Source: Bacteroidota bacterium (GTDB lineage: Bacteria; Bacteroidota; Ignavibacteria; SZUA-365). Taken from it: a stretch of DNA of 32,107 bases. The stretch spans positions 1 through 32,107 of the forward strand of contig QKAF01000137.1 in the NCBI GenBank assembly GCA_003246455.1, in the 5' to 3' direction. Below the pieces are notes generated by a model. That model worked only from the letters and a program-made list of their open reading frames with translations, ran no database searches and was not told the DNA's origin. The position numbers and the translations under genes were made by a program. Positions 372 to 22,166 of the stretch are shown here, piece by piece. Numbering within the stretch: the first letter of the stretch is position 1; each line of letters opens with the position of its first letter.

Positions 372-872
372 TTACCGCACGACGGTGAGCTTCAGCGTTG
401 CGATGACGCCGGCGGACTGAAGCCGTACGATGTACATGCCCGGGGCTACGAGCGTACCGGAGCCGTCGCGTCCGTCCCACTGCACGGAATGACTGCCCGC
501 CCCCATGTCGCTGTCCGTCAGCACGCGCACGACGCGGCCGAGGATGTCACTAATGACGATGCGCACGGGAGCGGCTGTTTTCAACGCAAATGGGATGGTG
601 GTCGACACCCCGGACGCGAGCGAAAACGGGTTCGGATAATTCTGCGCGACGCTGATCTGCTCCGCTGCGGCGATCGGCGTCTCCCCAACCGCGGTGGGGG
701 GATCGATGACATTAGTTTCCAGTACGAGGAATGCGGTGAACGGCGTCAGAATCTGGTGTTTGATGCTCAGATTGATGATGCTTTCCTTCAGCTCGTCGAG
801 CTTCTCCGTCTCGTAGCGTTTCAGCAGGGCGTCGATATGCGAGGCGGCCCAGTATGACGCTACCTGCTTCAC
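372..872 (-). CDS. Frameshifted 3' part of VIT/vWA protein: C-terminal region plus T9SS sorting domain
   Basis: The frame encodes about 166 residues. The first 50 (VKQVASYWAASHIDALLKRY and then a segment with LSIKHQILTPFTAFLVLE) match the conserved post-vWA segment of inter-alpha-trypsin-inhibitor-type proteins, in which helices are followed by a 'KYxIxTPYTSFxxxE' strand. The rest is a T9SS type A sorting domain: QNYPNPF, then IVISDILGRVVRVL, WDGRDGSG and GMYIVRLQ. The apparent start is a GTG at 872-870 with no ribosome binding site, overlapping the upstream stop by 4 nt. The same frame continues sensibly upstream (..VAFNACRVDV), so this is the tail of the gene at 869-2455 displaced by a frameshift, not an independent gene. 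Confidence 0.75.
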   Translation of the reverse strand: MKQVASYWAASHIDALLKRYETEKLDELKESIINLSIKHQILTPFTAFLVLETNVIDPPTAVGETPIAAAEQISVAQNYPNPFSLASGVSTTIPFALKTAAPVRIVISDILGRVVRVLTDSDMGAGSHSVQWDGRDGSGTLVAPGMYIVRLQSAGVIATLKLTVVR

Positions 873-2455
873 ATCGACACGGCAGGCGTTGAACGCGACG
901 GAGCGAACGACATCGAGGCGTCGAGGTAGCTCAGCCGGACGTTCGAAGGCGTCAGGTCGGTCAGACGACCGGTGGTCACCAGCTTGTCGATTCCGATCAC
1001 GGAGCTGAAATCGTGCGGGTAGACGAAGTACGCGTTCCCGTCGTCATAATGGACCTCGGGGGATGAGATGCCTCCGATATTCAGTTCGAGCATGATGCGC
1101 GAGATGATGGTCTGCAGATTATCGCCTGTCTCCACCATCGTCACCTTGCCGCCGCGTTCGTCGGCGATATCGTAGAGCTGGTCGATGCGGTCGCTGAAGA
1201 TGATGACCGGGAAGATACCCACGCCCATCGGGTCATTGTCCCTGATGACCTGGAGCAGACCCTCTGTCGTCACCGTTCCGCTGTTCGGCATGCCGTCGGT
1301 GAGAAAGAGCATGCGCCGTACCGCATCCTGCCTGAATTCCACACCGAGTGCCGCACGGAGTGCATTTTCGTAGTTGGTCGATCCGCCGGTGATGTACATG
1401 CGCTCGATGAAGTCGATGCCGTCGGCAATGCTTTCACTTGTCGCGTCGAGGAGCGTATTGGTCGTGGGGAAGGATACCGCGAAATCGCTGAACAGAACGA
1501 TGCGGAAGCGGTCCGTCGCGGTCAGCTGCAGCAGGATACCCGAAACCGCGTCTGCCACCATCTTCCTCCGCTCCTCGTACATGCTGCCGGACGCGTCGAG
1601 CACGAACACCAGGTCGCGCGGCTGCGTGACCTCCTCATTGATGCGCACGGGATGCCAGCACATGAAGTACGGGAATTCGCTCTGGTCTTCTTCCATGTAG
1701 GTCAGCGCCGGAAAAATGGAAAACGCGTCCAATGGCTTATACGTGAGTTCGAAATCCTGTGAATACATCTGCTGCTCGAGACCGAAATCCACCTGGTAGG
1801 CGAAATCCCCCAGCTGCTGCGTTCGGCATAGCAGGGGATTCGAATCGAAATTCGTACTGAAGCCCTCGATGCGCTGGAGAGATGAGACGTTTACGCGGAG
1901 CGCGGTTCTCTCAACCGGCGTAGTCTGATAGCCCTGGAGATTGAGCGGATAACGGTAGTGGATGCTGCCGTCGGGTGTCATCGGAAGGGTGTTGAAATAC
2001 TGAATTTCAATTCTGCGGGAACTGTGCGGATTTATCGGGAAGACTTTCAGCTGAAATCTATTGTTGCCAAGCGATTCGAGAAGGGCGGGATCGCGCCGCT
2101 GGCCGACAACGACACTGTCGTAGAGACGCTCGGCCTCTTCCTTCTTTTTGACGATGAAGGTGAGACGATTGCCGTCCACCCAGAGCCAGAGACCGTCCAC
2201 CTTCGCGCCTTCGGGAAGCTGGAAGGCATAGAATCCCTCGAGAATGAGGTTGTTTTCGTTGTAGAACTCTTCGTCCACATGGGTGACTGCGAGCTGCCCG
2301 GTAATGTTTACTGTCGTACGGATATTGCTGATGCGCAGGTTGTATACCGGCGTCTCCGTTCCCGGTCGGCGCGCATAGAGCACGCCGGCATCCGCGGCGG
2401 ATGTCCCGATGAGAAAAAGCAGCAGCGCAACGAAAAAATATGTAGCCCGTGTCAT
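869..2455 (-). CDS. VIT and vWA domain exported protein (5' part of a frameshifted gene)
   Basis: The start is placed at ATG 2455-2453. It has GGAGGTG a few bases upstream and begins a clean signal peptide (MTRATYFFVALLLFLIGTSAADA). The longer frame from 2491 lacks these. A VIT domain (about residues 20-150) with the characteristic ..VDEEFYNENNLILEGFYAFQLPEGAKVDGL pattern is followed by a vWA domain. Its MIDAS motif is DASGS near residue 287, with a later LTDGMPN strand. Such proteins bind ligands through a metal site in the vWA fold; here the protein is predicted to be on the cell surface. The frame runs out into unrelated residues (about SRSTPAVSM) and stops at 869, while the expected continuation lies in the adjacent frame (372-872). 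It is the last gene of the sigma-factor operon, separated from the vWA gene upstream by 263 bp holding repeats. Confidence 0.85.
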   Translation of the reverse strand: MTRATYFFVALLLFLIGTSAADAGVLYARRPGTETPVYNLRISNIRTTVNITGQLAVTHVDEEFYNENNLILEGFYAFQLPEGAKVDGLWLWVDGNRLTFIVKKKEEAERLYDSVVVGQRRDPALLESLGNNRFQLKVFPINPHSSRRIEIQYFNTLPMTPDGSIHYRYPLNLQGYQTTPVERTALRVNVSSLQRIEGFSTNFDSNPLLCRTQQLGDFAYQVDFGLEQQMYSQDFELTYKPLDAFSIFPALTYMEEDQSEFPYFMCWHPVRINEEVTQPRDLVFVLDASGSMYEERRKMVADAVSGILLQLTATDRFRIVLFSDFAVSFPTTNTLLDATSESIADGIDFIERMYITGGSTNYENALRAALGVEFRQDAVRRMLFLTDGMPNSGTVTTEGLLQVIRDNDPMGVGIFPVIIFSDRIDQLYDIADERGGKVTMVETGDNLQTIISRIMLELNIGGISSPEVHYDDGNAYFVYPHDFSSVIGIDKLVTTGRLTDLTPSNVRLSYLDASMSFAPSRSTPAVSM

Positions 2456-2557
2456 GGTCGCACCTCCGGCTCCGTATGTATGAGACTTCATCTTGTGAAC
2501 AGACGCCCGGTAGACACATGAGACGGGGTATCGTTCCTCCCGGCGGAGGAAAAATCC

Positions 2558-2620
2558 GCAGGAGGCGGGAAGCAGGAGGCGGGAAGCAGGAGGCAGGAGG
2601 CAGGAGGCAGGAAGCAGGAA
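2558..2620. repeat. Heptanucleotide tandem array (9 units of GCRGGAR)
   Basis: Nine consecutive 7-bp units, alternating GCAGGAG, GCGGGAA and GCAGGAA, run without interruption. The array lies in the 263-bp gap between the two vWA genes. It produces proline/serine-rich shadow reading frames, but none has a start signal or a homologous look. Strictly tandem short units are prone to copy-number change. Confidence 0.85.
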
Positions 2621-2636
2621 GCCGTGAGGAGACCGT

Positions 2637-2677
2637 CATGCCGAGTGGTCGCCGAAGGCGACCGTATCGAGGCATGG
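2637..2677. repeat. REP-like intergenic hairpin element
   Basis: An inner perfect stem GGTCGCC (2647-2653) / GGCGACC (2657-2663) with a GAA loop is enclosed by an outer inverted pair CATGCC (2638-2643) / GGCATG (2671-2676). Together they form a long imperfect cruciform. It lies directly beside the heptamer array in the leader of the VIT/vWA gene. Its form resembles dispersed REP-type elements. No second copy is visible in this window. Confidence 0.6.
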
Positions 2678-2718
2678 AGAGGATATCACGTGGAACAGCG
2701 GGTGCGGGTGTGTCCGGA

Positions 2719-3921
2719 CTACTCGATCACGGTGAGTTTTCCACTGTGGAACTCCGTTCCGCTGCCGAGGCGGTAGATATAGAAACCCGGTTTGAGCGAA
2801 GCCGGTGAGTATTTCGCGGCATGCGCACCCGGGGCCAGGTCTTCATCGAGCACGGTGGCGACGTGGCGTCCGAGGAGATCGAAGAGGTCGAGCCGCACGC
2901 TGCCCGCGTCGGCGAGGGTGAACTGAAAGCGTACTTCCGTCGATCGGGAGACGGGATTCGGATAACTTTGCCCGAGACGGATGTTCACTGCCGCGGAGGG
3001 CGGCGATACGGCGGTGACGGGCAGCTGATTGAAAATACGTGTCGCCCACACACTGTCGCTGCAGGCTTCGAGACGCATGCGGATGTGCAGATTCAGCATC
3101 GTGACGTCTTTCGTTCGACGTATGATGCGATGCTCGTCGTACTCGCGCTGAATGAACCCGACGAAGTTCTCATACATCGGGACGAGATCGTCGGGGGAAT
3201 TCGCGCGATAGAAAATGCCGCCGCTTTCCGTACAGAGGGTTCGCAGAGGCGTCTCGTCCAGGGAACTGCCCAGTGCGATAATGAACACGCGGATGCCGTA
3301 CTGGCGCACGTCTTCCAGCAGCTGATTGAGATTCGTCCCGCTGCTGTTGTCGTTTCCGGTGGTGAAGGCGAGAACGGCCTGCACCCTCGCGGTGCCGCCC
3401 GTGTAAAGAGTAGTTACTCCTGCGCTGATACCGTCATAAAGCGCCCGCCTCCCGCTCACGCTCATTGCGTCTATCGCGCCACGCAGCGCGTCACGGTCGC
3501 CGGTAAGAAAAGTGCGGACCGTGGGAAGGTCATCGAATGAAATGATCGAGGCATTGTCGCAGGATTTGGACATCGTGTCGACGAACGCGCGTCCCGCGTT
3601 GATCACGGAGGGGAGATCCGCCCCTACACTGCTCGAGTTGTCAAAGGCGAGGACGATTTCATAACAGGTGTTGCGGCTCGGTGAAGCGAGGCGGTCGATC
3701 TGGAAGTCGAAGGTGTCTATTCTTCCGAACTCCTCTTCCAGGATCAGCTGTTCCTTCCGGAGATCGTATATCACACTGTCGCCGCAGAACGTCGCGAAGT
3801 ACAGCTGGTAGTAATAGTAGGCCGGCGTGTTGGATTTCAGCAGCCGGAGATCGAGACGGGGCTGTGCGCTCGCCCCCGCCGCGGCGAAAAGCAGAATCAG
3901 TATGATGGATAGTCGTTTCAT
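2719..3921 (-). CDS. vWA domain T9SS-exported protein
   Basis: A 400-residue protein with a signal peptide (MKRLSIILILLFAAAGASAQ). A vWA domain starts near residue 88, with the strand EIVLAFDNSSSVG giving a MIDAS-type DxSxS (D-N-S-S-S near residue 95), and runs to about 255. The last 90 residues are a T9SS sorting domain: QSYPNPVSRSTEV, then VRLDLFDLLGRHVATVL and GFYIYRLGSG. AAGGAG lies about 8 nt before the ATG. It begins 21 nt after the lipoprotein gene, so the two are probably co-transcribed. vWA modules act as metal-dependent adhesion or protein-binding domains; the ligand is unknown. There are several cysteines (CGD, NTCYE, SCDN, LCTESGG, EACSD), compatible with disulfides in an exported protein. 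Confidence 0.88.
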   Translation of the reverse strand: MKRLSIILILLFAAAGASAQPRLDLRLLKSNTPAYYYYQLYFATFCGDSVIYDLRKEQLILEEEFGRIDTFDFQIDRLASPSRNTCYEIVLAFDNSSSVGADLPSVINAGRAFVDTMSKSCDNASIISFDDLPTVRTFLTGDRDALRGAIDAMSVSGRRALYDGISAGVTTLYTGGTARVQAVLAFTTGNDNSSGTNLNQLLEDVRQYGIRVFIIALGSSLDETPLRTLCTESGGIFYRANSPDDLVPMYENFVGFIQREYDEHRIIRRTKDVTMLNLHIRMRLEACSDSVWATRIFNQLPVTAVSPPSAAVNIRLGQSYPNPVSRSTEVRFQFTLADAGSVRLDLFDLLGRHVATVLDEDLAPGAHAAKYSPASLKPGFYIYRLGSGTEFHSGKLTVIE

Positions 3922-3942
3922 GCGTGTAACTCCTTGGTTCCG

Positions 3943-4695
3943 TCACGGAAACAGCGGAGACGAAACGTACCAGGGGTACGGGATGTTGTAGTGCGCCTGT
4001 TCGCCGCGCACGTTGATGATGAAAATGGTCGCAAGATAGTCCGGCGATGATTGAAATCGCGGGACGTTATTCTGTCCAAGGTAAATCAGGACATTCGACT
4101 GATCGCTGGAGAATTTGTAATCCCACGGGACGGTCGAGAGTTCGCCCTGCACGAAAGCGTAAAGGCTCTGTTCGCCCGCACCGACCAGGGGTTCGCCGCG
4201 ATCGTAGCGGCTGTTTTCGTTGGTGTCATGATAGACAACGATGACGGCGACCGCGAGACGCGAACAACTGAAATCGCGGAAATACTCCGGAAGAATCTCC
4301 GCCGTGAACGGCAGACCGGTCGCGGGAATATCGAGGTAGTTGGCGGACACGGAGTAGATATCTTTCCACGGAACTGCGGCGGAATCACCGGAAGCACTCG
4401 AATCGGGGGGCACGCAGACGAGACTGACCCGGAGTCCGCTTCCCGAAAAGCGTTTCAATGGATAAAGCGTGGTGTCCACGATTGCCTCGAAACGGATGGT
4501 GGTTTTGACGCGGACCGTATCACCGCGCCATTCCGCATCACACGGTTTCGGCGTTTTAGTTGTACCATTGATCTCTTCAGGAGGTGAACAGGATACAGCG
4601 AGGACAGCGAGGAGCAGCGCTCCCGCGGAAAGGACACGGCGGCAGAATTGCTGTCTTCCGCCGTGTGCTCCGTACGCATGTATCTTGTGTCTCAA
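3943..4695 (-). CDS. Outer-envelope lipoprotein of unknown function
   Basis: A 250-residue protein with a long N-region and a lipobox LAVSC, placing the lipidated cysteine at residue 36. The TTG at 4695-4693 is the best in-frame start seen. It lies 8 nt after the stop of the anti-sigma gene, which suggests translational coupling. The mature part contains an EF-hand-like acidic stretch (YHDTNENSRYDRGEP), of the kind often seen in calcium-stabilised surface proteins, and beta-rich sequence. No family was recognised. Its place between a regulator and two secreted vWA proteins suggests a partner in the same surface assembly; this is inference. Confidence 0.75.
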   Translation of the reverse strand: MRHKIHAYGAHGGRQQFCRRVLSAGALLLAVLAVSCSPPEEINGTTKTPKPCDAEWRGDTVRVKTTIRFEAIVDTTLYPLKRFSGSGLRVSLVCVPPDSSASGDSAAVPWKDIYSVSANYLDIPATGLPFTAEILPEYFRDFSCSRLAVAVIVVYHDTNENSRYDRGEPLVGAGEQSLYAFVQGELSTVPWDYKFSSDQSNVLIYLGQNNVPRFQSSPDYLATIFIINVRGEQAHYNIPYPWYVSSPLFP

Positions 4696-4703
4696 CGAAA
4701 CGT

Positions 4704-5960
4704 TCAGAACCTGTAGCGAATGCCGTATGATATGCCGAGACTGTGACTTGTGAAAAGCTTGTCCTTGTACTTGTATGCGAGCAGAGTGCCGTTGCCGCCC
4801 AGTACCAGGCTGATGCGCTCGATCGGATCGAAACGCACGCCGATACGTGCACCGAAAACCGGGCCGTAATCACATCCGCCGATCTGCAGGGTCAGTTCGG
4901 GAGTGACGCCGCTGAAGAGCGGCTGCGAATAACGGTAGAATCCTGCACCGTAGAATAATGCGGGCTGCTGCTGGAAGAGAAACAGAGAGTCGTTTTCGAT
5001 GCGGTAGTATTCCATCGCGAAGGACTTTTCTCCCGCCATGATGCCGGCCGCATGATGTTCGTTGAACACGTACCCGAGGGAAGCGGCGAATTGCTGCTGC
5101 GTGCGGCTTGCTCCGACACGGCTGTAATCAATATACGGGTAGGTGGTCAGATGCTCACGCTGCAGTTCGAATTCGATGCGTCCCGGCAGCGATACCGGCG
5201 ACATGGCGTAGGGCTGCTCTGTAATCTCGATGGGGCGCTGGTCCTGTGCGGTCTGCATCAGTGCGATCAGCACTGTGTCATAGCGCTGCACGATCATGGG
5301 TTCAGACGCGGCAGCCGCTTCCTGCGCCGGCACGAATACGGTGTCGACACGTGTCACGTACACGTTCCGGTATACGATGCGCAGCGTGCCATTTTGCTCA
5401 CCATGGCCCGTGCGGGCAGCCTGTGTCCCCTCGTTAGAGGCAGCGGAAGGGACGGAAGGAGCGGAAGGGGCGGAAGGAGCGCTTGTTACGCCCACGCCGG
5501 TGGTGGATTCCGTTCCGGGGGAGAACATGTCGCTGAGATACCATCCGCCGGTAAAGAGTGAGAGTCCGAGGAGGACGGCCGTGATCACGCGGCCCGCGGT
5601 CCAGAAGGCAGCGCCGCTCAGAGCCGTTCCTGCAGTTCCAACGGTTCCTCCCGCCGCAGCGATCGCCGCGCCTGCGGCGCTTGCTGCGCCGATCGTCGCG
5701 GATGTTCCAGCTGCCCCGATGGCTCCGCCTGCTGCCGCACCACCGGCTGCCGCGCCGGCAGCGCCAAGGATCGCCATGTCGAGGTGTGAAGGAACGGCGG
5801 CGCTGCGGGCGTCCGCGGCGAAGACCGAGCGCGTGCCGAGATAGGAATGGAAGAGCGCGCGTTTTTCGGGCGAGACCGAAAGGATATGGAGAAACTCCGT
5901 CTCCTCGCCGGACGTGAGCGCGCCGTCCATGAATGCCGATATTTGTTCTTCGAAGTTCAT
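4704..5960 (-). CDS. Membrane anti-sigma factor fused to a beta-barrel-like C-terminal domain
   Basis: This 418-residue protein overlaps the sigma gene by 4 nt (ATGA), the usual arrangement for an ECF sigma and its anti-sigma factor. Residues 1-50 (EQISAFMDGALTSGEETEFLHIL...) have the short helical pattern of an anti-sigma domain but lack the HxxxCxxC zinc motif. Residues 61-118 are an Ala/Gly run rich in GxxxG/AxxxA-type spacing. Residues 121-142 form one transmembrane helix. Residues 160-174 are a PSA-repeat linker encoded by 9-bp units. Residues from about 255 to the end alternate polar and hydrophobic residues as in a small outer-membrane barrel and finish in an aromatic residue (GIRYRF). 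By family logic the N-terminus would hold the sigma factor in the cytoplasm. The barrel-like tail is unusual for an anti-sigma factor. Confidence 0.8.
   Translation of the reverse strand: MNFEEQISAFMDGALTSGEETEFLHILSVSPEKRALFHSYLGTRSVFAADARSAAVPSHLDMAILGAAGAAAGGAAAGGAIGAAGTSATIGAASAAGAAIAAAGGTVGTAGTALSGAAFWTAGRVITAVLLGLSLFTGGWYLSDMFSPGTESTTGVGVTSAPSAPSAPSVPSAASNEGTQAARTGHGEQNGTLRIVYRNVYVTRVDTVFVPAQEAAAASEPMIVQRYDTVLIALMQTAQDQRPIEITEQPYAMSPVSLPGRIEFELQREHLTTYPYIDYSRVGASRTQQQFAASLGYVFNEHHAAGIMAGEKSFAMEYYRIENDSLFLFQQQPALFYGAGFYRYSQPLFSGVTPELTLQIGGCDYGPVFGARIGVRFDPIERISLVLGGNGTLLAYKYKDKLFTSHSLGISYGIRYRF
5446..5484. repeat. In-frame 9-bp tandem repeat coding the PSA linker
   Basis: Successive units close to GCGGAAGGA (plus strand) encode Ala-Pro-Ser repeats in the linker of the anti-sigma/barrel protein. 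Unit changes of 9 bp keep the frame, so the array could change linker length without breaking the gene. Confidence 0.6.
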
Positions 5961-6517
5961 CGTTCCGTTGTCCGATTCATGTCGGGGGCTAATATCTGGC
6001 GCAGCCGCTGCCGCGCGCGAAAGATGCGTTTCCGCACCGTTGTCACAGGGACTTCCGTCATCGCTGCGATCTCGTCGTACGAGTAGCCCTGATACTCACA
6101 GAGCAGGAGCGCTTCGCGGTTGACCGCGGGCAGTTCCTGCAGGGCGCTTTCCAGGTCATCGTATTCCCCCACCATGACACGTTCTCCACCGGGGAGAAAT
6201 TCCTCCAGTTCGTCAACATCCTTCGGGTACTTTCGGTCACGAATCACGTTCAGGCAGCGATTACGCGCCGATCGGAGCAGGTATCCCTGCACGTTCTCGA
6301 TGTCGCTTCCGCCGCGAATGCGCTCGAGCAGGTTCAGGAAGACTTCCTGAAAAATGTCCTCGGCTGCGGGACGGTCGCCCAGGAAGCGGGTGCAGTAGAG
6401 ATAAACCCCCTGCCGATACCCGGCGTAGAGTTCCGCAAATGCGGCATCGTCACCTCCACGGATGCGCTGCTGCAGCTGCAGGTCCTGCAAGACGGTTTGA
6501 CTCACTTCTTCAAGCAC
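5957..6517 (-). CDS. ECF-family RNA polymerase sigma factor
   Basis: Region 2 is clear (FAELYAGYRQGVYLYCTRFL, then AAEDIFQEVFLNLLERI), which in this family binds core polymerase and the -10 element. Region 4 has a helix-turn-helix (LPAVNREALLLCEYQGYSYD, then EIAAMTEVPVTTVRKRIFRA), which reads the -35 element. The open frame reaches 6682, but its first 55 residues are not family-like. I place the start at GTG 6517, preceded by an AGGA at good spacing; GTG 6505 is the alternative. The resulting length of 186 aa is normal for an ECF sigma. The gene overlaps its anti-sigma gene by 4 nt and heads the operon 6517-372. Positive autoregulation is typical for the family, but no obvious repeated promoter motif was found. 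Confidence 0.9.
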   Translation of the reverse strand: MLEEVSQTVLQDLQLQQRIRGGDDAAFAELYAGYRQGVYLYCTRFLGDRPAAEDIFQEVFLNLLERIRGGSDIENVQGYLLRSARNRCLNVIRDRKYPKDVDELEEFLPGGERVMVGEYDDLESALQELPAVNREALLLCEYQGYSYDEIAAMTEVPVTTVRKRIFRARQRLRQILAPDMNRTTER

Positions 6518-6816
6518 ATCGTTCCTGTAACCATTACTGACACCGAAGCACCGTTGTCGCCCCAAAGACACCGCAGACGGGGAAAAATTCCCTCGTCCGC
6601 GAAAAAAAACTGGTTTAGGATCGGTCTGTCCGCGGAAACTTAGCCCAATCACGCTGGAAAAGCAATGGAAATGGAATGTCACGAACCTTCGCGACGTACG
6701 CGGGAGGCGCCGCGGCGCGGCACATGCGCCGCAAGACGGGTGGAATAGGTGTAACTTCTCCGAAATGCGGGTTGTCTCCCTTGCCTGTTACCCAGTTCAA
6801 ACAAGCGGAGGATGCC
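6518..6816. promoter_or_regulatory. Divergent promoter region between the sigma-factor operon and the Asp-box gene
   Basis: About 300 bp between two outward-reading genes must hold promoters for both. I see no confident -35/-10, sigma-54 or Bacteroidota TAnnTTTG match. The region contains an imperfect hairpin at 6572-6601 (CGCAGACGGGGAA against TTCCCTCGTCCGCG). It is followed on the plus strand by a run of eight A, so it is not a terminator in either direction. A 12-bp GC-only palindrome lies at 6707-6718. Frames extending both neighbouring genes into this region are not protein-like. Confidence 0.4.
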
Positions 6817-8523
6817 ATGACAAGGATGCTGCGACGTGCGCTGTTTCCCGTATTTCTGATCATCGTTTTATGCGCGGATCCCTGCTCATCCCAGCTGCTT
6901 CCGGAATGGATCGTATCCGGCGGCGGCCAGTTCACCGCCCTTTCGACGGTGAAGGGAATATCGGGATGCCCCGGCGGCTGCTACCTGACAGGAGGACAGT
7001 CGGAAAATGACTACGTGCTCCAGGTGTCGGAGGATGCAGGCCGAAGCTGGATCGAGGTACTGCGGCTGAAGCGCTATGGCTTCGGTGCGGTACAGTCCCC
7101 GCTGTCGCGGCCGTTTCTGGAAGTCCAGGTCAATACCGTGCTGCGTCCGACTGCAGCGGTCTGCTTCGCGTACGGCTGCGGAAGCTATGAACTGAACGGG
7201 GCATACTTCCCATTTCTGCTCCGCTCCCTCGACAGCGGCCGCACCTGGAATGAGATCGCGCTGGCGGATTCCGGCCAGGGCATCTTCAGCTCCAGCCTTG
7301 CGATGAAGGATTCCCAGTATGGCATTCGGAGAGGCGGTTATGTCGACGCGCAGCATTCCGTCATGTACCGGACATCGGACGGCGGGCTCACATGGAGCAC
7401 CGTGGATGTCCCATTCAGGGACTACCGTGTCTTGGACATCTTCTACGCTGATGACGGAGCGCTGTTCGTGACGGAGAACCAGTCGCCGGCAGCTCTTTAC
7501 CGGTCGATGGACGATGGTGCGACCTGGGAGTATCGCGGTCCCCTTCCAGCTTCCCGCACGCCGTGTTTCGTGTCCGCCGATCTCGGGTGGATTGCTTACG
7601 GCGAGAGTAACGGTATCGGGAGTCAGGAAAAGGATGTTATCGCACGGACGACCGACGGGGGAAGCAGCTGGACGACCATTCGCGACACCCTGCAGGAACC
7701 GGCATTCGGTCTGATCGCGATCGCTGCGGCGGATGCGGAACATGTGATCGCTGTCGGAAGACTCGGGAAATCCCTCCATTCAACGGACGGCGGGGCGACG
7801 TGGGAAACGGGGACCCGTCCGTTTTACCTCTACGATCCGGCCACGGTTGAGGTGGAATATCCGGATACGGCTTCGGCGGTCTCCGGCGCGCTGATGCATA
7901 TCATGACATACACCGGGAAGAGAAACCTGCCGGCACCGACACTCACCGTGAAGCAGGGAATGGACGTGATGCAGCCGGTCGCACACTGGACCACGGTCAA
8001 CGGGGCGGTCGAATACCAGCTCGAAATGGCTGAGGATTACCACACGAACACCATGCAGTTCGAGATCTTCGATGAAGATCCCTATATGCAGAGCGGTTGG
8101 CTCGCCGATACGACCCTTGCGCTGAATTTCTGGCTGCGGGAAAACCGCGACTATTTCGTGCGTGTGCGTGCGCGGGGTGGCGCGTACACCAGTGACTGGA
8201 GCTACCCGGAGAAGTTCTACACACAGCAGTCGACGGGCATTCCACCGGTTTCGCTTCCCTCGCGGCTCACCCTGTCCGTGAGTCCGCATCCGGCAGGGGA
8301 CGTCGCCAATGTCACCGTGCGCGGGATGCGTGCGGGGGAGAACTGGACGATGACACTGCATGATGCGCAGGGGCGTACTTGCCGAAGCGACGGCGGTGTT
8401 GCGGCGTCAGACGGAATACTGCTGCGCGAACTGCGCGCCGGCGGGCTGGCGAATGGAATGTACTATATCCATTTCGCCTGCGGTGGCGAGTACGAGGTAT
8501 TCCCGCTGCACATTGTTCGATAG
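6817..8523 (+). CDS. Asp-box beta-propeller and FnIII protein exported by T9SS
   Basis: The start is ATG 6817, with GGAG 6 nt upstream and a signal peptide directly after it (MTRMLRRALFPVFLIIVLCA, then DPCSSQ). The frame is open back to 6676, but that extension is not protein-like. At least six Asp-box (BNR) motifs of the S-x-D-x-G-x-T-W type are visible: SEDAGRSW, SLDSGRTW, TSDGGLTW, SMDDGATW, TTDGGSSW and STDGGATW. They span about residues 60-370 and indicate a YCF48/sialidase-like propeller. A fibronectin-III-like stretch follows (APTLTVKQGMDVMQPVAHW, later YFVRVRARGG and SDWSYPEKFYT), and then a T9SS sorting domain (SPHPAGDVANVTV.. to ..VFPLHIVR). Propellers of this type in surface proteins serve binding or scaffolding; no catalytic residues are claimed. 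It is convergent with the ABC-F gene, 53 bp apart. Confidence 0.85.
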   Translation: MTRMLRRALFPVFLIIVLCADPCSSQLLPEWIVSGGGQFTALSTVKGISGCPGGCYLTGGQSENDYVLQVSEDAGRSWIEVLRLKRYGFGAVQSPLSRPFLEVQVNTVLRPTAAVCFAYGCGSYELNGAYFPFLLRSLDSGRTWNEIALADSGQGIFSSSLAMKDSQYGIRRGGYVDAQHSVMYRTSDGGLTWSTVDVPFRDYRVLDIFYADDGALFVTENQSPAALYRSMDDGATWEYRGPLPASRTPCFVSADLGWIAYGESNGIGSQEKDVIARTTDGGSSWTTIRDTLQEPAFGLIAIAAADAEHVIAVGRLGKSLHSTDGGATWETGTRPFYLYDPATVEVEYPDTASAVSGALMHIMTYTGKRNLPAPTLTVKQGMDVMQPVAHWTTVNGAVEYQLEMAEDYHTNTMQFEIFDEDPYMQSGWLADTTLALNFWLRENRDYFVRVRARGGAYTSDWSYPEKFYTQQSTGIPPVSLPSRLTLSVSPHPAGDVANVTVRGMRAGENWTMTLHDAQGRTCRSDGGVAASDGILLRELRAGGLANGMYYIHFACGGEYEVFPLHIVR

Positions 8524-17864: not shown

Positions 17865-19124
17865 ATGAATCGCATGGTTACCTTCTTCATCGCTTGCCTG
17901 GTCACAGTTTTTGCTGGTACGGCTTCCGCGCAGATGATGTGGCCTTCCTCACTCAACTGGGTGGGGTATACGTATTCGAACTCCGAGGCCGTTCAGGATC
18001 CGCAGGATATTCCCAACAATCAGATCGCATTCGATCTGGTATACGACGCGAATGCCCCGTATTCGGTCATGGTTGCCGCCACCATCACGCATGTATACTT
18101 CCGTCTCCAGGTTCGCGATATCACGGACTGGACCGTCGGTACCTACGTGCTTTACATCGCGGACGCCACCGGCACGATTCTCGGCAAGACCTATCTGACA
18201 CTCACCGGAAATGCCGGTTCGATCCACGTCGTCAATGCCGCCGGATCCGTCGATCAGACCACCGGCAGCGGTTCCCACGCGAGCAACATCGGCGGATGGG
18301 CGCGCATCACCGCCGTCGGCGGAAGTTCGACGCACGATTATGTCGACTTCCAGGTCCCGCGCGGGATCTTTGAAAGCGTGCTCGGTATCGCCAACGGACA
18401 GATCCTGATCAAGTTCTACGCCGGAACGAGCACTGGCGCCGGTAATGTCAACAATATCAACACCGACTGGATGACGCCCAGCACCAATGCGGTTCCCACC
18501 GCTGCTGATTTCGGCATGCTTTCCGGCGCAACCGTGAGCGGACTGACCATGGGTGTTCTTCCTGTGGAACTCACATCCTTCAGCGCTTATCTCAAGTCGA
18601 ACACCGTCGAACTTCGCTGGAACACGGCGACGGAGAAGAACAACTTCGGTTTCGACGTCGAACGCCGCATTGAAGGCGGAGAGTGGACCAGTGTCGGATT
18701 CGTCGCAGGGCACGGCAACAGCAACAGCCCGAAAAGCTACCGTCACAACGATGAGGTCAGCGGACTGAAAGGCGCGGTCGCCTACCGTCTCAAGCAGATC
18801 GACCGCGACGGAAGCATCGAGTATTCTTCGACCGTCATGGTCAGCTTCGATGCCGAAACGGGAATGAACATCACCGATGCCTACCCGAATCCTTTCAATC
18901 CGACGACGACGGTGAACTTCACGCTCGGCCAGGATTCGAATGTCCGTCTCAGCCTTCACGACGTGACGGGCCGCGAAGTGAAGACCATTCTCGAGAACGC
19001 TTCGCTCAGCGCCGGGTCGCATGCGCAGACCATCAACGCCGACGGTCTGGCCAGCGGACGTTACTTCCTCGTTCTTCAGACTGCCTCGGCCCGCAGCATG
19101 TACCCGGTCCTTCTCAGCAAGTAA
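17865..19124 (+). CDS. T9SS-exported surface protein, paralog 1 of 3
   Basis: 419 residues. A signal peptide (MNRMVTFFIACLVTVFAGTA, ending SAQ) is followed by a beta-rich domain of about 210 residues with landmarks WVGYTYSN, VQDPQD, VYFRLQV, GGWARI, DYVDFQVP and FYAGTSTGAGN..NINTDWMT. Next comes an Ig/FnIII-like module (LPVELTSFSAYLKSNTVELR to AYRLKQIDRDGSIEYS) common in T9SS cargo. The sorting domain follows (AYPNPFNPTTTVNF, LSLHDVTGREVKTIL, GRYFLVLQ). The first domain resembles DOMON/CBM9-type beta sandwiches only loosely; I do not recognise the family. The same three-part plan occurs in the next two genes. A sigma-54 promoter lies upstream and a 12-bp-stem hairpin downstream. Confidence 0.85.
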   Translation: MNRMVTFFIACLVTVFAGTASAQMMWPSSLNWVGYTYSNSEAVQDPQDIPNNQIAFDLVYDANAPYSVMVAATITHVYFRLQVRDITDWTVGTYVLYIADATGTILGKTYLTLTGNAGSIHVVNAAGSVDQTTGSGSHASNIGGWARITAVGGSSTHDYVDFQVPRGIFESVLGIANGQILIKFYAGTSTGAGNVNNINTDWMTPSTNAVPTAADFGMLSGATVSGLTMGVLPVELTSFSAYLKSNTVELRWNTATEKNNFGFDVERRIEGGEWTSVGFVAGHGNSNSPKSYRHNDEVSGLKGAVAYRLKQIDRDGSIEYSSTVMVSFDAETGMNITDAYPNPFNPTTTVNFTLGQDSNVRLSLHDVTGREVKTILENASLSAGSHAQTINADGLASGRYFLVLQTASARSMYPVLLSK

Positions 19125-19167
19125 AGCATCGACAGAAGGATATGGAGGTTCATTTCGCTCATAACTT

Positions 19168-19198
19168 CAGTGGTCCTTGTTAACTGCAAGGACCACTG
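19168..19198 (+). terminator. Strong hairpin after paralog 1 (no T tract)
   Basis: CAGTGGTCCTTG (19168-19179) pairs perfectly with CAAGGACCACTG (19187-19198) across a 7-nt loop. It lies 44 nt after the stop codon. No run of T follows, so it may act as an RNA stabiliser, a processing site or a leaky terminator rather than a classical terminator. Confidence 0.55.
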
Positions 19199-19362
19199 CT
19201 GTTAAGAAGACGAACATTAAAGTATATTAGGGAATGATTTCGCTAAAAAATTGATTTTTCTAGTAATTATGGAATTCGTTCATTATCTTTTCGCTCATTC
19301 GTGAATAGATTGACGATTGCCTCGAAAACGAACTGTCCTATCCGCAGGAGAAGAAGAAAGTG

Positions 19363-20625
19363 ATGCACTGGTCAAAATCATTCGGAACGTGGTTGATCCT
19401 TTTTTCCTGGCTGTTGTGTACAGCCACAGAGGCACAGCCGTTCAACTGGAGCACGACACCGCTGACCTGGGTCGGCTATCGGTATTCGAACGGCACCGCG
19501 ATACAGGATCCGTCGAGTGATGTGACGAACAATCCCTCGTATAATCTCACGTTTGATCCGACATATGCCCCGTTCACGCTTCAAATGGCGGCGACGCCCA
19601 CAACGGGGGTTTTCCGGATCCAGGTGGACGGGCTCACGCAGTGGAGCGTGAATTCTTACATCATTTTCATTGCGAATGCGGCGAACGTGCAGATCGGCCG
19701 GGTATTCCTCTCTCTCAGCGGAAACAGCGGGGATATCGGTTTCAACAACAATTCGTCCACAGTGCTCGTTGTCAGCAAAGGGTCCCAGGCCACCAACATG
19801 GGCGGCTGGGCTCGGATTGTTCAGGTTCCGAACACGAGCAATTCCTATATCGATTTTCAGTTCCCGCTCGCAACCCTCTACAGTCATCTGGGTATCACCG
19901 CGTCGACACCGATCAAATTTTACGCTGGCACGTCGACGGGTGCAGGAAATCTCGCAAACATCAATATCGACTGGATGACGACCACCTCAAACGGCATACC
20001 GGCACCCGCCGATTTCGCTTCGCTCATGGAAGCTTCCATCACGTCGATTTCGATCGGGGCGCTTCCCGTGGAACTGACGGGGTTTTCCGGACGCCATTAT
20101 GACGGACGAACCGTACTTCACTGGGAGACAGCGTCGGAAATCAACAGCGCCGGTTTCGAAATCCAGCGCTCCGTCGACGGAAACGCGTGGAAGCCGGAAG
20201 GGTACGTTCCGGCAGCAGGAACGTCGTACGTGCCGCGGCGATATGAATTTGTGGATCAGATCGAAGCCGCCGGGGAGCAGCTGCGCTATCGACTGCGCCA
20301 GATCGACAGGGATGGCACGGAAGAATTCTCACCCGTCGTGGAGGTCGCGACAACCGCAGGGCCGGAAGCATCGCTGCAACTGTTTCCACAGCCCGCGCAT
20401 GGCCAGACCTCGGTCCGATGCTCCATTTTACAGCCCGGGATCGTGCAGGTGAAACTCTTCGATGCCTGCGGACGGGTCGTACGCACGCTGCTCGAAAGTG
20501 CCGCGCAGAACGCAGCGTCCTTCAGCTTCGTATTCAATACGGAAGGGCTCCGGAGCGGACGCTACTTCATCGTCATGCATCACGCAGACGGGACGACCGT
20601 GCGGCCGTTTCTCCTGGTCGAGTGA
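19363..20625 (+). CDS. T9SS-exported surface protein, paralog 2 of 3
   Basis: About 420 residues with the same plan as its upstream neighbour. A signal peptide (MHWSKSFGTWLILFSWLLCT..EAQ) is followed by the shared beta domain: LTWVGYRYSNG, IQDPSSD, VFRIQV, GGWARI, YIDFQFP and IKFYAGTSTGAGN..NIDWMT. Then come the Ig/FnIII-like module (LPVELTGFSGRH to RYRLRQIDRDGTEEFSPVVE) and a sorting domain whose entry is FPQPAHGQTSV instead of YPNPF. It is closer to paralog 1 than to paralog 3. A GTG at 19360 directly precedes ATG 19363; the GGAG at 19347-19350 is better spaced for the GTG, so either is possible. The 238-bp gap upstream is AT-rich and contains only a weak GG-N10-GC promoter candidate. Confidence 0.85.
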   Translation: MHWSKSFGTWLILFSWLLCTATEAQPFNWSTTPLTWVGYRYSNGTAIQDPSSDVTNNPSYNLTFDPTYAPFTLQMAATPTTGVFRIQVDGLTQWSVNSYIIFIANAANVQIGRVFLSLSGNSGDIGFNNNSSTVLVVSKGSQATNMGGWARIVQVPNTSNSYIDFQFPLATLYSHLGITASTPIKFYAGTSTGAGNLANINIDWMTTTSNGIPAPADFASLMEASITSISIGALPVELTGFSGRHYDGRTVLHWETASEINSAGFEIQRSVDGNAWKPEGYVPAAGTSYVPRRYEFVDQIEAAGEQLRYRLRQIDRDGTEEFSPVVEVATTAGPEASLQLFPQPAHGQTSVRCSILQPGIVQVKLFDACGRVVRTLLESAAQNAASFSFVFNTEGLRSGRYFIVMHHADGTTVRPFLLVE

Positions 20626-20891
20626 CCTAGCAAGCCCCTCGACATCATCCCGCCGGAAAACCCCCGAATTCAGGACCTGCTCTATCTGAATTATATGTAA
20701 CCAAATGTTAATAGGGAGTTCAGGCAGCGGGTAAACCGATTCGCTATGTTGGTAGCGCAACACCATCAGGCGTTTTTTTCGGGTGCACGCTGTCTTGATT
20801 CCTTTCTACGGACGGAATCTCCGGCAGAACGGCCACAAAAACGCGCGGTAATGCGGATAATTATCATCACTATTATCATATAGGTGCGAAA
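20626..20891 (+). other. AT-rich spacer between paralogs 2 and 3
   Basis: These 266 bp have no gene-like frame. A short stem CGCTA (20742-20746) / TAGCG (20753-20757) lies 15 nt before a run of seven T (20773-20779), a poor terminator at best. The last 40 bp are AT-rich (TAATTATCATCACTATTATC) and could hold a promoter for paralog 3, but no motif is clear. Confidence 0.35.
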
Positions 20892-22166
20892 ATGAATTCA
20901 GGACAGCGCTTTCGGGGGAGGGCGGGCCGACGCTTCATAACAACGCTGCTGCTCCTCGCGGGCATGACGGGAGCGGCATCGGCGCAGTATACTCCGGCGG
21001 CGTGGCCGGCGACCTTTGTGGACTACCGCGACAGCACGGGGAATTACATTCAGGATATCAGCGATCAGAATCCGTCATACACGGATATCATCTTCTCGGC
21101 GAGCACTCCCAGCTCCGTCATGGTCGCGTATGACGGGACAACCGCATTCTTTCGCCTCCAGCTCGCGGATAATGCCTGGAGAAGCAACGGAAGCTGGGCT
21201 CCGTACGCGTGGGTGGTGGCATTGAGCGGTCCCACAGGACAGGGGGAGCCCATCGGCTTTGTTTCCGTGAGCGGCTCGGGCAGTTCGCTGGATGTGGAAG
21301 TGAAAGACCAGACCACCACCGACCGGATCTATACGTATGCGAAAACGAACCCGAATCCGGCGGCTGTACGCTCGGTGCCGGCAGGTCTTTCCGGTTACTA
21401 CTATCTCGATTTCCAGGTACCCATGGCTGCGATGACCGCCAGGATCGGGATCGACGGATCCACACCGCTGCGCCTCTTCTACGGAACCTCCGCTTCCGGA
21501 GGGACGATCAACAAGGACTTCATGACCGGCGGCTCCGTGAACTTCCTCGGCCTGGGCACGACGAATTTCAACGGCATCATGCATGGAAGCATCACCGTGA
21601 ATCCGGTGGAGCTGACGTCCTTCTCCGCGTACAGGAAAAATGGAGCAGTCGCATTGCGTTGGAATACGGCCACGGAGCTGAACAACTTCGGTTTCGAAGT
21701 CCAGCGTACCGAAGATGGAAACTCATGGCGGATGATCGGGTTCGTCGCCGGCGCGGGCACGGTCTACAGCCCGCGCGCATACGAATTCGAAGACAGGTCG
21801 CTTCCGACGAGCGGGTATCTGCGGTATCGCCTGCGCCAGGTCGATCGCGACGGCAGTTCCGAGTATTCGCCGGTTGTCGAGGTGCGCACGGACGCACAGA
21901 CAGCGCCGGGAATCAGCGGCATGTTTCCATCGCCGGCACGCGCGATGACCACCGTCAGCTATTCCCTCGAATCCGCCGGAACCGCCGTCCTCACGCTGCA
22001 TGATCTCACCGGACGTCAGCTCCGCACGCTGTCTGAAGAATACAGTGCGGCGGCGGGATCGCACTCCTCCGTTGTCGACGTCAGCGGACTGACCACGGGG
22101 ATCTACCTCCTGCAGCTTCGCTCCGAAGGAGACATGCAGGTGATTCCGATGCAGGTACACAACTAG
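20892..22166 (+). CDS. T9SS-exported surface protein, paralog 3 of 3
   Basis: 424 residues; ATG 20892 has AGGTG 5-6 nt upstream. The signal peptide has an Arg-rich start (MNSGQRFRGRAGRRFITTLL, ending ASAQ). The diverged beta domain keeps the landmarks TFVDYRDSTGNYIQD, PSSVMVAYD, FFRLQLAD, YYLDFQVP and LRLFYGTSASGG..NKDFMT. It has a larger middle insertion and lacks the GGWARI motif. The Ig/FnIII-like module (NPVELTSFSAYRKNGAVALR to RYRLRQVDRDGSSEYSPVVE) and the sorting domain (FPSPARAMTTVSY, LTLHDLTGRQLRTL, GIYLLQL) follow. It ends QVHN, an unusual finish for the last strand. A strong terminator lies 37 nt downstream. Confidence 0.85.
   Translation: MNSGQRFRGRAGRRFITTLLLLAGMTGAASAQYTPAAWPATFVDYRDSTGNYIQDISDQNPSYTDIIFSASTPSSVMVAYDGTTAFFRLQLADNAWRSNGSWAPYAWVVALSGPTGQGEPIGFVSVSGSGSSLDVEVKDQTTTDRIYTYAKTNPNPAAVRSVPAGLSGYYYLDFQVPMAAMTARIGIDGSTPLRLFYGTSASGGTINKDFMTGGSVNFLGLGTTNFNGIMHGSITVNPVELTSFSAYRKNGAVALRWNTATELNNFGFEVQRTEDGNSWRMIGFVAGAGTVYSPRAYEFEDRSLPTSGYLRYRLRQVDRDGSSEYSPVVEVRTDAQTAPGISGMFPSPARAMTTVSYSLESAGTAVLTLHDLTGRQLRTLSEEYSAAAGSHSSVVDVSGLTTGIYLLQLRSEGDMQVIPMQVHN

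Follow-up and report, generated by a model that had tools for sequence, protein, structure and literature searches.

A Dma-type anti-sigma and ECF sigma factor locus as the predicted control centre of a dispersed regulon of T9SS surface cargo

Results

Gene content and organization of the locus

The window, i.e., the whole 32,107-nt stretch of DNA that was analysed, was contig C101 of genome G000 (4.1 Mb in 165 contigs). It contained an operon encoding, in order, an ECF sigma factor, an anti-sigma, a lipoprotein, a vWA protein and a VIT-vWA protein, every gene being on the minus strand:

5957..6517, minus strand: ECF sigma factor, 186 aa, GTG start; Pfam Sigma70_r2 and Sigma70_r4_2
4704..5960, minus strand: anti-sigma of Dma layout, 418 aa; weak RseA_N match, 9-ortholog alignment, AlphaFold2, Foldseek
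3943..4695, minus strand: lipoprotein, 250 aa, TTG start, lipobox Cys at residue 36
2719..3921, minus strand: 400-aa secreted vWA protein bearing a T9SS sorting domain; Pfam VWA, TIGR04183
869..2491, minus strand: VIT-vWA N-terminal part, likely start ATG at 2455; Pfam VIT and VWA
372..923 (start about 923), minus strand: VIT-vWA C-terminal part in a shifted frame, FlgD_ig/T9SS sorting domain; TIGR03788, TIGR04183

HMM searches of the operon proteins detected sigma70 r2/r4, VWA, VIT and T9SS sorting domains. These searches detected no FecR domain in any operon protein, the anti-sigma included. A TonB receptor was found neither in the operon by HMM nor in the conserved locus, in agreement with an earlier note made from the same DNA. 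The coordinates also agreed with the tight packing that had been described: the sigma and anti-sigma genes overlapped by 4 nt, and gaps of 8 nt and 21 nt separated the anti-sigma gene from the lipoprotein gene and the lipoprotein gene from the vWA gene. The VIT+vWA open reading frame (ORF) did follow after a repeat-bearing gap, which was 227 nt long and included a GGAAGC/GGAGGC repeat. Intergenic gaps of this genome contained repeat runs of the GGAAGCAGGAGGC type, both at window positions 2555-2620 and ahead of the sigma gene of another locus (L069); the runs were missing at the matching place in relatives and resembled a spreading simple repeat.

Two further features of the window were recorded. 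A divergent BNR/Sortilin-like secreted protein (6676-8523, plus strand) adjoined the sigma gene and was also a neighbour of the locus in G001. At 17865-22166 (plus strand) there were three successive proteins of ~420 aa, two of which carried T9SS sorting domains; these are perhaps tandem duplicates.

Conservation of the operon

The earlier note had proposed searching relatives for the ordered gene set, and the order held. The full set of five genes was present in G003, G005 and G008, and the set was ordered up to the contig ends in G001, G002, G009, G010 and G011. In G007 (L065, L169) the first four genes lay together, and the VIT-vWA gene lay ~8 kb off with the same promoter kept. All genomes with the orthologous locus belonged to one family. 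A scan of named genomes with the anti-sigma alignment returned only six loci, whose organism labels were either Bacteroidetes bacterium or uncultured Ignavibacteria bacterium; two of the six were from Ignavibacteria (NCBI phylum Ignavibacteriota).

Sigma factor orthologs shared 51-90% identity. Compared with G003, the closest relative, dN/dS was 0.07-0.15 for every gene, both halves of the VIT-vWA gene included. Judged by this constraint and the conserved order, the arrangement is more than chance.

Architecture of the anti-sigma

Dma proteins consist of an anti-sigma domain, a transmembrane helix, a disordered tether and a C-terminal barrel, and are encoded beside an ECF sigma factor (PMC13088901). 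The anti-sigma of the operon was compared with this published description. Its N-terminus (residues 1-51) was helical and strongly conserved in the nine-ortholog alignment, and RseA_N matched it weakly, at an E-value of 0.0024 that falls short of the curated cut-off. Secondary structure in the AlphaFold2 model comprised four helices at residues 3-69, a helix at 116-146, an unstructured stretch at 147-260 and about nine strands at 261-418. Variable stretches lay on either side of a hydrophobic helix at 118-136, Ala/Gly-rich before it and polar after it, and conservation across the alignment was lowest in the linker (147-260). The C-terminal domain was conserved, and its terminal Phe was invariant in the orthologs.

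As in Dma proteins, a single transmembrane helix and a long disordered tether were found. A C-terminal outer-membrane beta-barrel was also predicted, as read from a poor model (mean pLDDT 43.6, low confidence). The barrel assignment draws on the secondary structure, on conservation and on Foldseek matches, which had low TM-scores and among which the OmpA transmembrane domain ranked first (E 4e-5 to 1e-3). On these sequence and model features the anti-sigma was treated as Dma-like. The barrel had been mentioned in the earlier note and Foldseek supports it as OmpA-like, but no link had been drawn there to trans-envelope anti-sigmas of the Dma type.

The lipoprotein and the two vWA proteins

The lipoprotein family had no Pfam or NCBIfam match, NigD included, and the structure model (mean pLDDT 39) was too poor for a structure search. 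Its orthologs conserved the lipobox region (CSPP/CAPP) and a DxNxNxR(Y/F)DxGE loop that, by its sequence, appears to resemble calcium-binding loops.

The earlier description of the cargo as metal-dependent domains held for one of the two vWA proteins. Judged by DxSxS, Thr and Asp, the VIT-vWA protein had an intact MIDAS (DASGS, T, D), but the first vWA protein (2719-3921) did not: it retained the Asp of DxSxS, while the MIDAS Thr was replaced by R159 and the Asp by T187, replacements that were invariant in all nine orthologs (9/9).

At the domain level both vWA proteins had a signal peptide and a C-terminal TIGR04183 domain, so the T9SS sorting domains ascribed to both of them were confirmed to that extent, but the tail of the VIT-vWA protein was out of frame in the window. 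The gene that had been taken as one was frameshifted: the ORF at 869-2491 stopped, and the remaining domain and T9SS tail continued in another frame from 372 to about 923. The two pieces matched positions 196-470 and 515-578 of the TIGR03788 profile. In G003, G005 and G008 the VIT-vWA protein was encoded by a single intact ORF, indicating that the copy in the window lost its frame, with a net loss of 13 nt relative to G003. Since dN/dS was low in both halves, the break would be either recent or a fault of assembly. A programmed frameshift was rejected because relatives had one open frame, and a one-base homopolymer error is unlikely given the net 13-nt difference from G003 and the lack of a long run at the site.

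Promoters at the operon

Two copies of one promoter were found at the locus:

6566..6592, minus strand: promoter 1 (operon), GGGAATTTTTCCCCGTCTGCGGTGTCT, with -35 GGGAAT and -10 GTGTCT; exact pattern match
2511..2537, minus strand: promoter 2, AGGAACGATACCCCGTCTCATGTGTCT, located 56 nt upstream of the ATG at 2455, within the gap that bears the repeat; pattern match

GGAA-N16-GTGTC was found upstream of the sigma gene at seven of eight orthologous loci, the spacer being N17 in G002, and a matching element preceded the VIT-vWA gene in all six orthologs with that gene. An alternative, longer sigma ORF reached 6682 and would begin upstream of promoter 1; the position of promoter 1 inside that ORF argues for translation starting at 6517. 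No copy of the promoter was found on the strand of the neighbouring BNR/Sortilin-like gene (6676-8523, plus strand). The sigma factor consisted of r2 and r4 only and its own promoter was, at the sequence level, the one common to the regulon described below. The same promoter before both the sigma and the VIT-vWA genes favours the earlier proposal that the locus may switch on its own components.

Dispersed sites and the predicted regulon

The regulon was searched for with two exact patterns, the main one being GGGAAY-N15-GTGTCW. In the five sigma-bearing genomes this pattern occurred at 48 sites: 11 in G000, 12 in G003, 7 in G005, 6 in G008 and 12 in G007. Forty-two of the 48 lay outside the operon and are referred to as dispersed. 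The reversed pattern had no sites in the same five genomes, and shortening the spacer by 2 nt (N13) left six sites across them, as against 48. Sigma-less genomes of the same family contained one and two sites, and genomes of the order and class contained 0-3. With the relaxed pattern, the five genomes had 14, 17, 10, 15 and 14 sites vs. two and three in the sigma-less relatives.

Positions left free in the search agreed as well. Positions 7-9 read [GT][AT][AT] at 12/14 operon sites, 27/42 dispersed sites and 1/26 sites from sigma-less genomes (p 2.6e-7, dispersed vs. sigma-less). At positions 18-20 there was agreement in 33/42 dispersed sites vs. 2/26 sigma-less sites (p 7e-9).

Most dispersed sites lay ~30-150 nt before a gene encoding a signal peptide. 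The first gene after the site matched TIGR04183 at E<=0.001 in 24 of the 42 cases. In G000 the background of sorting domains was at least 150 places (the 150 listed of 269 candidates) on an estimated ~3,500 genes, i.e., 4-8%. A minority of dispersed sites had no convincing exported gene downstream; these may be chance occurrences.

Gene families retained the promoter across genera. The Pfam names of single families below were assigned from member counts:

Tat-signal-like DUF362 protein with sorting domain: G000, G008, G007
328-aa protein, probably of GH43_C2/DUF1349 type: G000, G003, G005, G007
799-aa protein: G003, G008, G007
134-aa protein ending SVKRTWGSIKAMFR: G000, G003, G007, G008
Second VIT-vWA family: G005, G008, G007

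The small secreted protein of ~134 aa (L179:1545-1946; orthologs in L143, L164 and L191) was strongly conserved over three genera and always lay behind GGGAAY-N15-GTGTCW; it had no clear type A sorting domain. The DUF362 proteins (L132, L154, L162) apparently combined a twin-arginine-like start, DUF362 and a T9SS-like C-terminal domain. This combination suggests a cofactor-bearing protein that is exported by Tat and then by T9SS.

The dispersed regulon was not universal, as G002 had sites at chance level; its sigma factor had diverged (51%) and the spacer of its promoter was 1 nt longer. A variant motif tried in G002 gave chance-level matches only.

The earlier note had suggested a self-contained surface sensing or adhesion module; the sigma factor would then serve no genes beyond its own operon and the VIT-vWA gene next to it. 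The conserved five-gene order and the promoters before both transcription units accord with that reading, and a paralog of the locus, which these genomes also carry and whose motif occurs once in each, behaves in just this way. For the present locus, however, each of the five genomes had 6-12 exact sites of the motif, most of them preceding unlinked genes for other secreted, T9SS-exported proteins, and the extra positions matched between operon and dispersed sites. The chance-level counts of sigma-less genomes, the spacer dependence and the agreement of the free positions together argue against a self-contained adhesion module, which we now regard as very improbable.

A second alternative is a regulator of vesiculation or envelope remodelling resembling Das1/Dma1. 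The sigma factor would then mainly set vesicle output, perhaps via the lipoprotein, with the surface proteins as passengers. The anti-sigma layout, the adjacent ECF sigma factor and the downstream lipoprotein are the same, and the functions for which Dma proteins have been tested are control of vesicles and of polysaccharide-utilization loci (PULs) (PMC13088901). Against this, the lipoprotein had no match to NigD or any other family, and the predicted regulon was rich in T9SS cargo with no vesicle gene recognised among its members. This alternative is unlikely, if less so than the self-contained module.

A paralogous locus with a private promoter

The same genomes contained a paralogous module comprising a sigma factor, a Dma-like barrel-bearing anti-sigma, a vWA lipoprotein and a vWA protein with a T9SS sorting domain. 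The example in the genome of the window was:

G000:C111:103983-107743 (L069 5984-9744), minus strand: paralogous locus, conserved in the same genomes

The vWA lipoprotein of this locus had its cysteine in ACDSPL, and the paralogous vWA proteins kept the canonical MIDAS residues. Its promoter, TGTAACCTT-N12-GTGTTA, had a single occurrence in each genome, ahead of the sigma gene of this locus and nowhere else. A paralogous locus with a private, single-site promoter suggests that the module was probably duplicated, one copy apparently regulating only itself and the other having acquired or kept a wide regulon.

The dispersed promoters might instead be read by another ECF sigma factor of similar specificity, the operon being one of its targets. 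G000 had 19 ECF-like genes, and overlapping ECF regulons are thought possible in flavobacteria (PMC9723704). Yet in none of the five genomes examined was another ECF gene preceded by the motif, the excess of sites followed the presence of the operon's sigma factor, and the closest paralog had its own distinct motif. We consider this explanation about as improbable as the self-contained module.

Discussion

Proposed mechanism

The locus is likely the control centre of a dispersed regulon of T9SS surface cargo under a Dma-type anti-sigma and an ECF sigma factor. This reading starts from what the sequence shows directly: the order of the genes, the two promoters and their dispersed counterparts, the T9SS tails and how the anti-sigma is laid out. 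From these we infer sigma binding, an envelope topology, a signal and a role for the accessory proteins. The anti-sigma would hold the ECF sigma factor through its cytoplasmic N-terminal domain, and its single chain would pass through the inner membrane, span the periplasm and end in an OmpA-like outer-membrane barrel. A presumed envelope or cell-surface signal would loosen this hold. The freed sigma factor would read GGGAAY-N15-GTGTCW promoters, amplify its own operon (sigma, anti-sigma, lipoprotein and vWA protein), drive the VIT-vWA gene from the second promoter, and switch on scattered genes for T9SS-exported surface proteins.

The lipoprotein and the vWA protein probably work at the cell surface, where they would affect either the barrel of the anti-sigma or its signal. 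A more speculative extension, which we hold to be a minor possibility, is that the trans-envelope anti-sigma adjusts T9SS cargo output to conditions at the cell surface. The vWA cargo lacking a metal site and the lipoprotein would report export by engaging the barrel and, depending on secretion or surface load, the sigma factor would be released or kept bound.

Dma anti-sigmas have been described only recently, and little has been settled about their signals or direct promoters. The present locus adds a pair of Dma type from outside Bacteroides, for which the promoter is sharply defined and predicted targets are named, most of them exported via one secretion system. It joins the question of what an anti-sigma that runs from membrane to membrane senses to that of how the expression of T9SS cargo is set. 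The paralogous locus with its private promoter provides a built-in comparison in the same genomes. In the open-access literature searched, no report of an ECF sigma factor with a T9SS cargo regulon was found, nor anything relevant on the function of bacterial VIT-vWA proteins.

Comparison with known systems

The closest parallels were Das1/Dma1 and Das2/Dma2 of Bacteroides thetaiotaomicron (PMC13088901). There, as here, an ECF sigma factor lies beside a single-chain anti-sigma with an N-terminal sigma-binding domain, one transmembrane helix, a disordered tether and a C-terminal beta-barrel. Both systems form a short operon with further genes and have a strong effect on their own operon, which is predicted in the present case. 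Unlike Das/Dma, the operon described here carries a lipoprotein without a family and T9SS vWA proteins, and it belongs to another organism group, with Ignavibacteria among the named matches (2/6). The targets also differ: nigD1, PULs and vesicle output for Das/Dma (PMC13088901), and T9SS surface cargo for the regulon predicted here.

In FecIR/SusCD-type signalling, too, a sigma/anti-sigma pair controls outer-membrane functions, but the conserved locus described here has no FecR domain and no TonB-dependent receptor.

ECF control of the T9SS machinery has precedents in SigP (PMC4800418) and the SM6 promoters (PMC9723704); among the targets predicted here, no T9SS machinery gene was recognised. 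The SM6 promoters of Flavobacterium psychrophilum are likewise of ECF type and include a sigma/anti-sigma pair and T9SS genes (PMC9723704). SM6 targets the T9SS machinery (GldN, PorU) with a -10 box of CGT (PMC9723704), whereas the motif and the gene set of the present locus are different. The PorXY-SigP system of Porphyromonas gingivalis also ties an ECF sigma factor to T9SS (PMC4800418, PMC7712824). SigP is under response-regulator control and drives the T9SS machinery (PMC4800418), while the sigma factor described here is paired with a Dma-type anti-sigma and its predicted targets are cargo genes. PorA, a T9SS-type surface protein, feeds back on the SigP pathway (PMC7712824) and is a precedent for a surface protein of this type acting on an ECF pathway.
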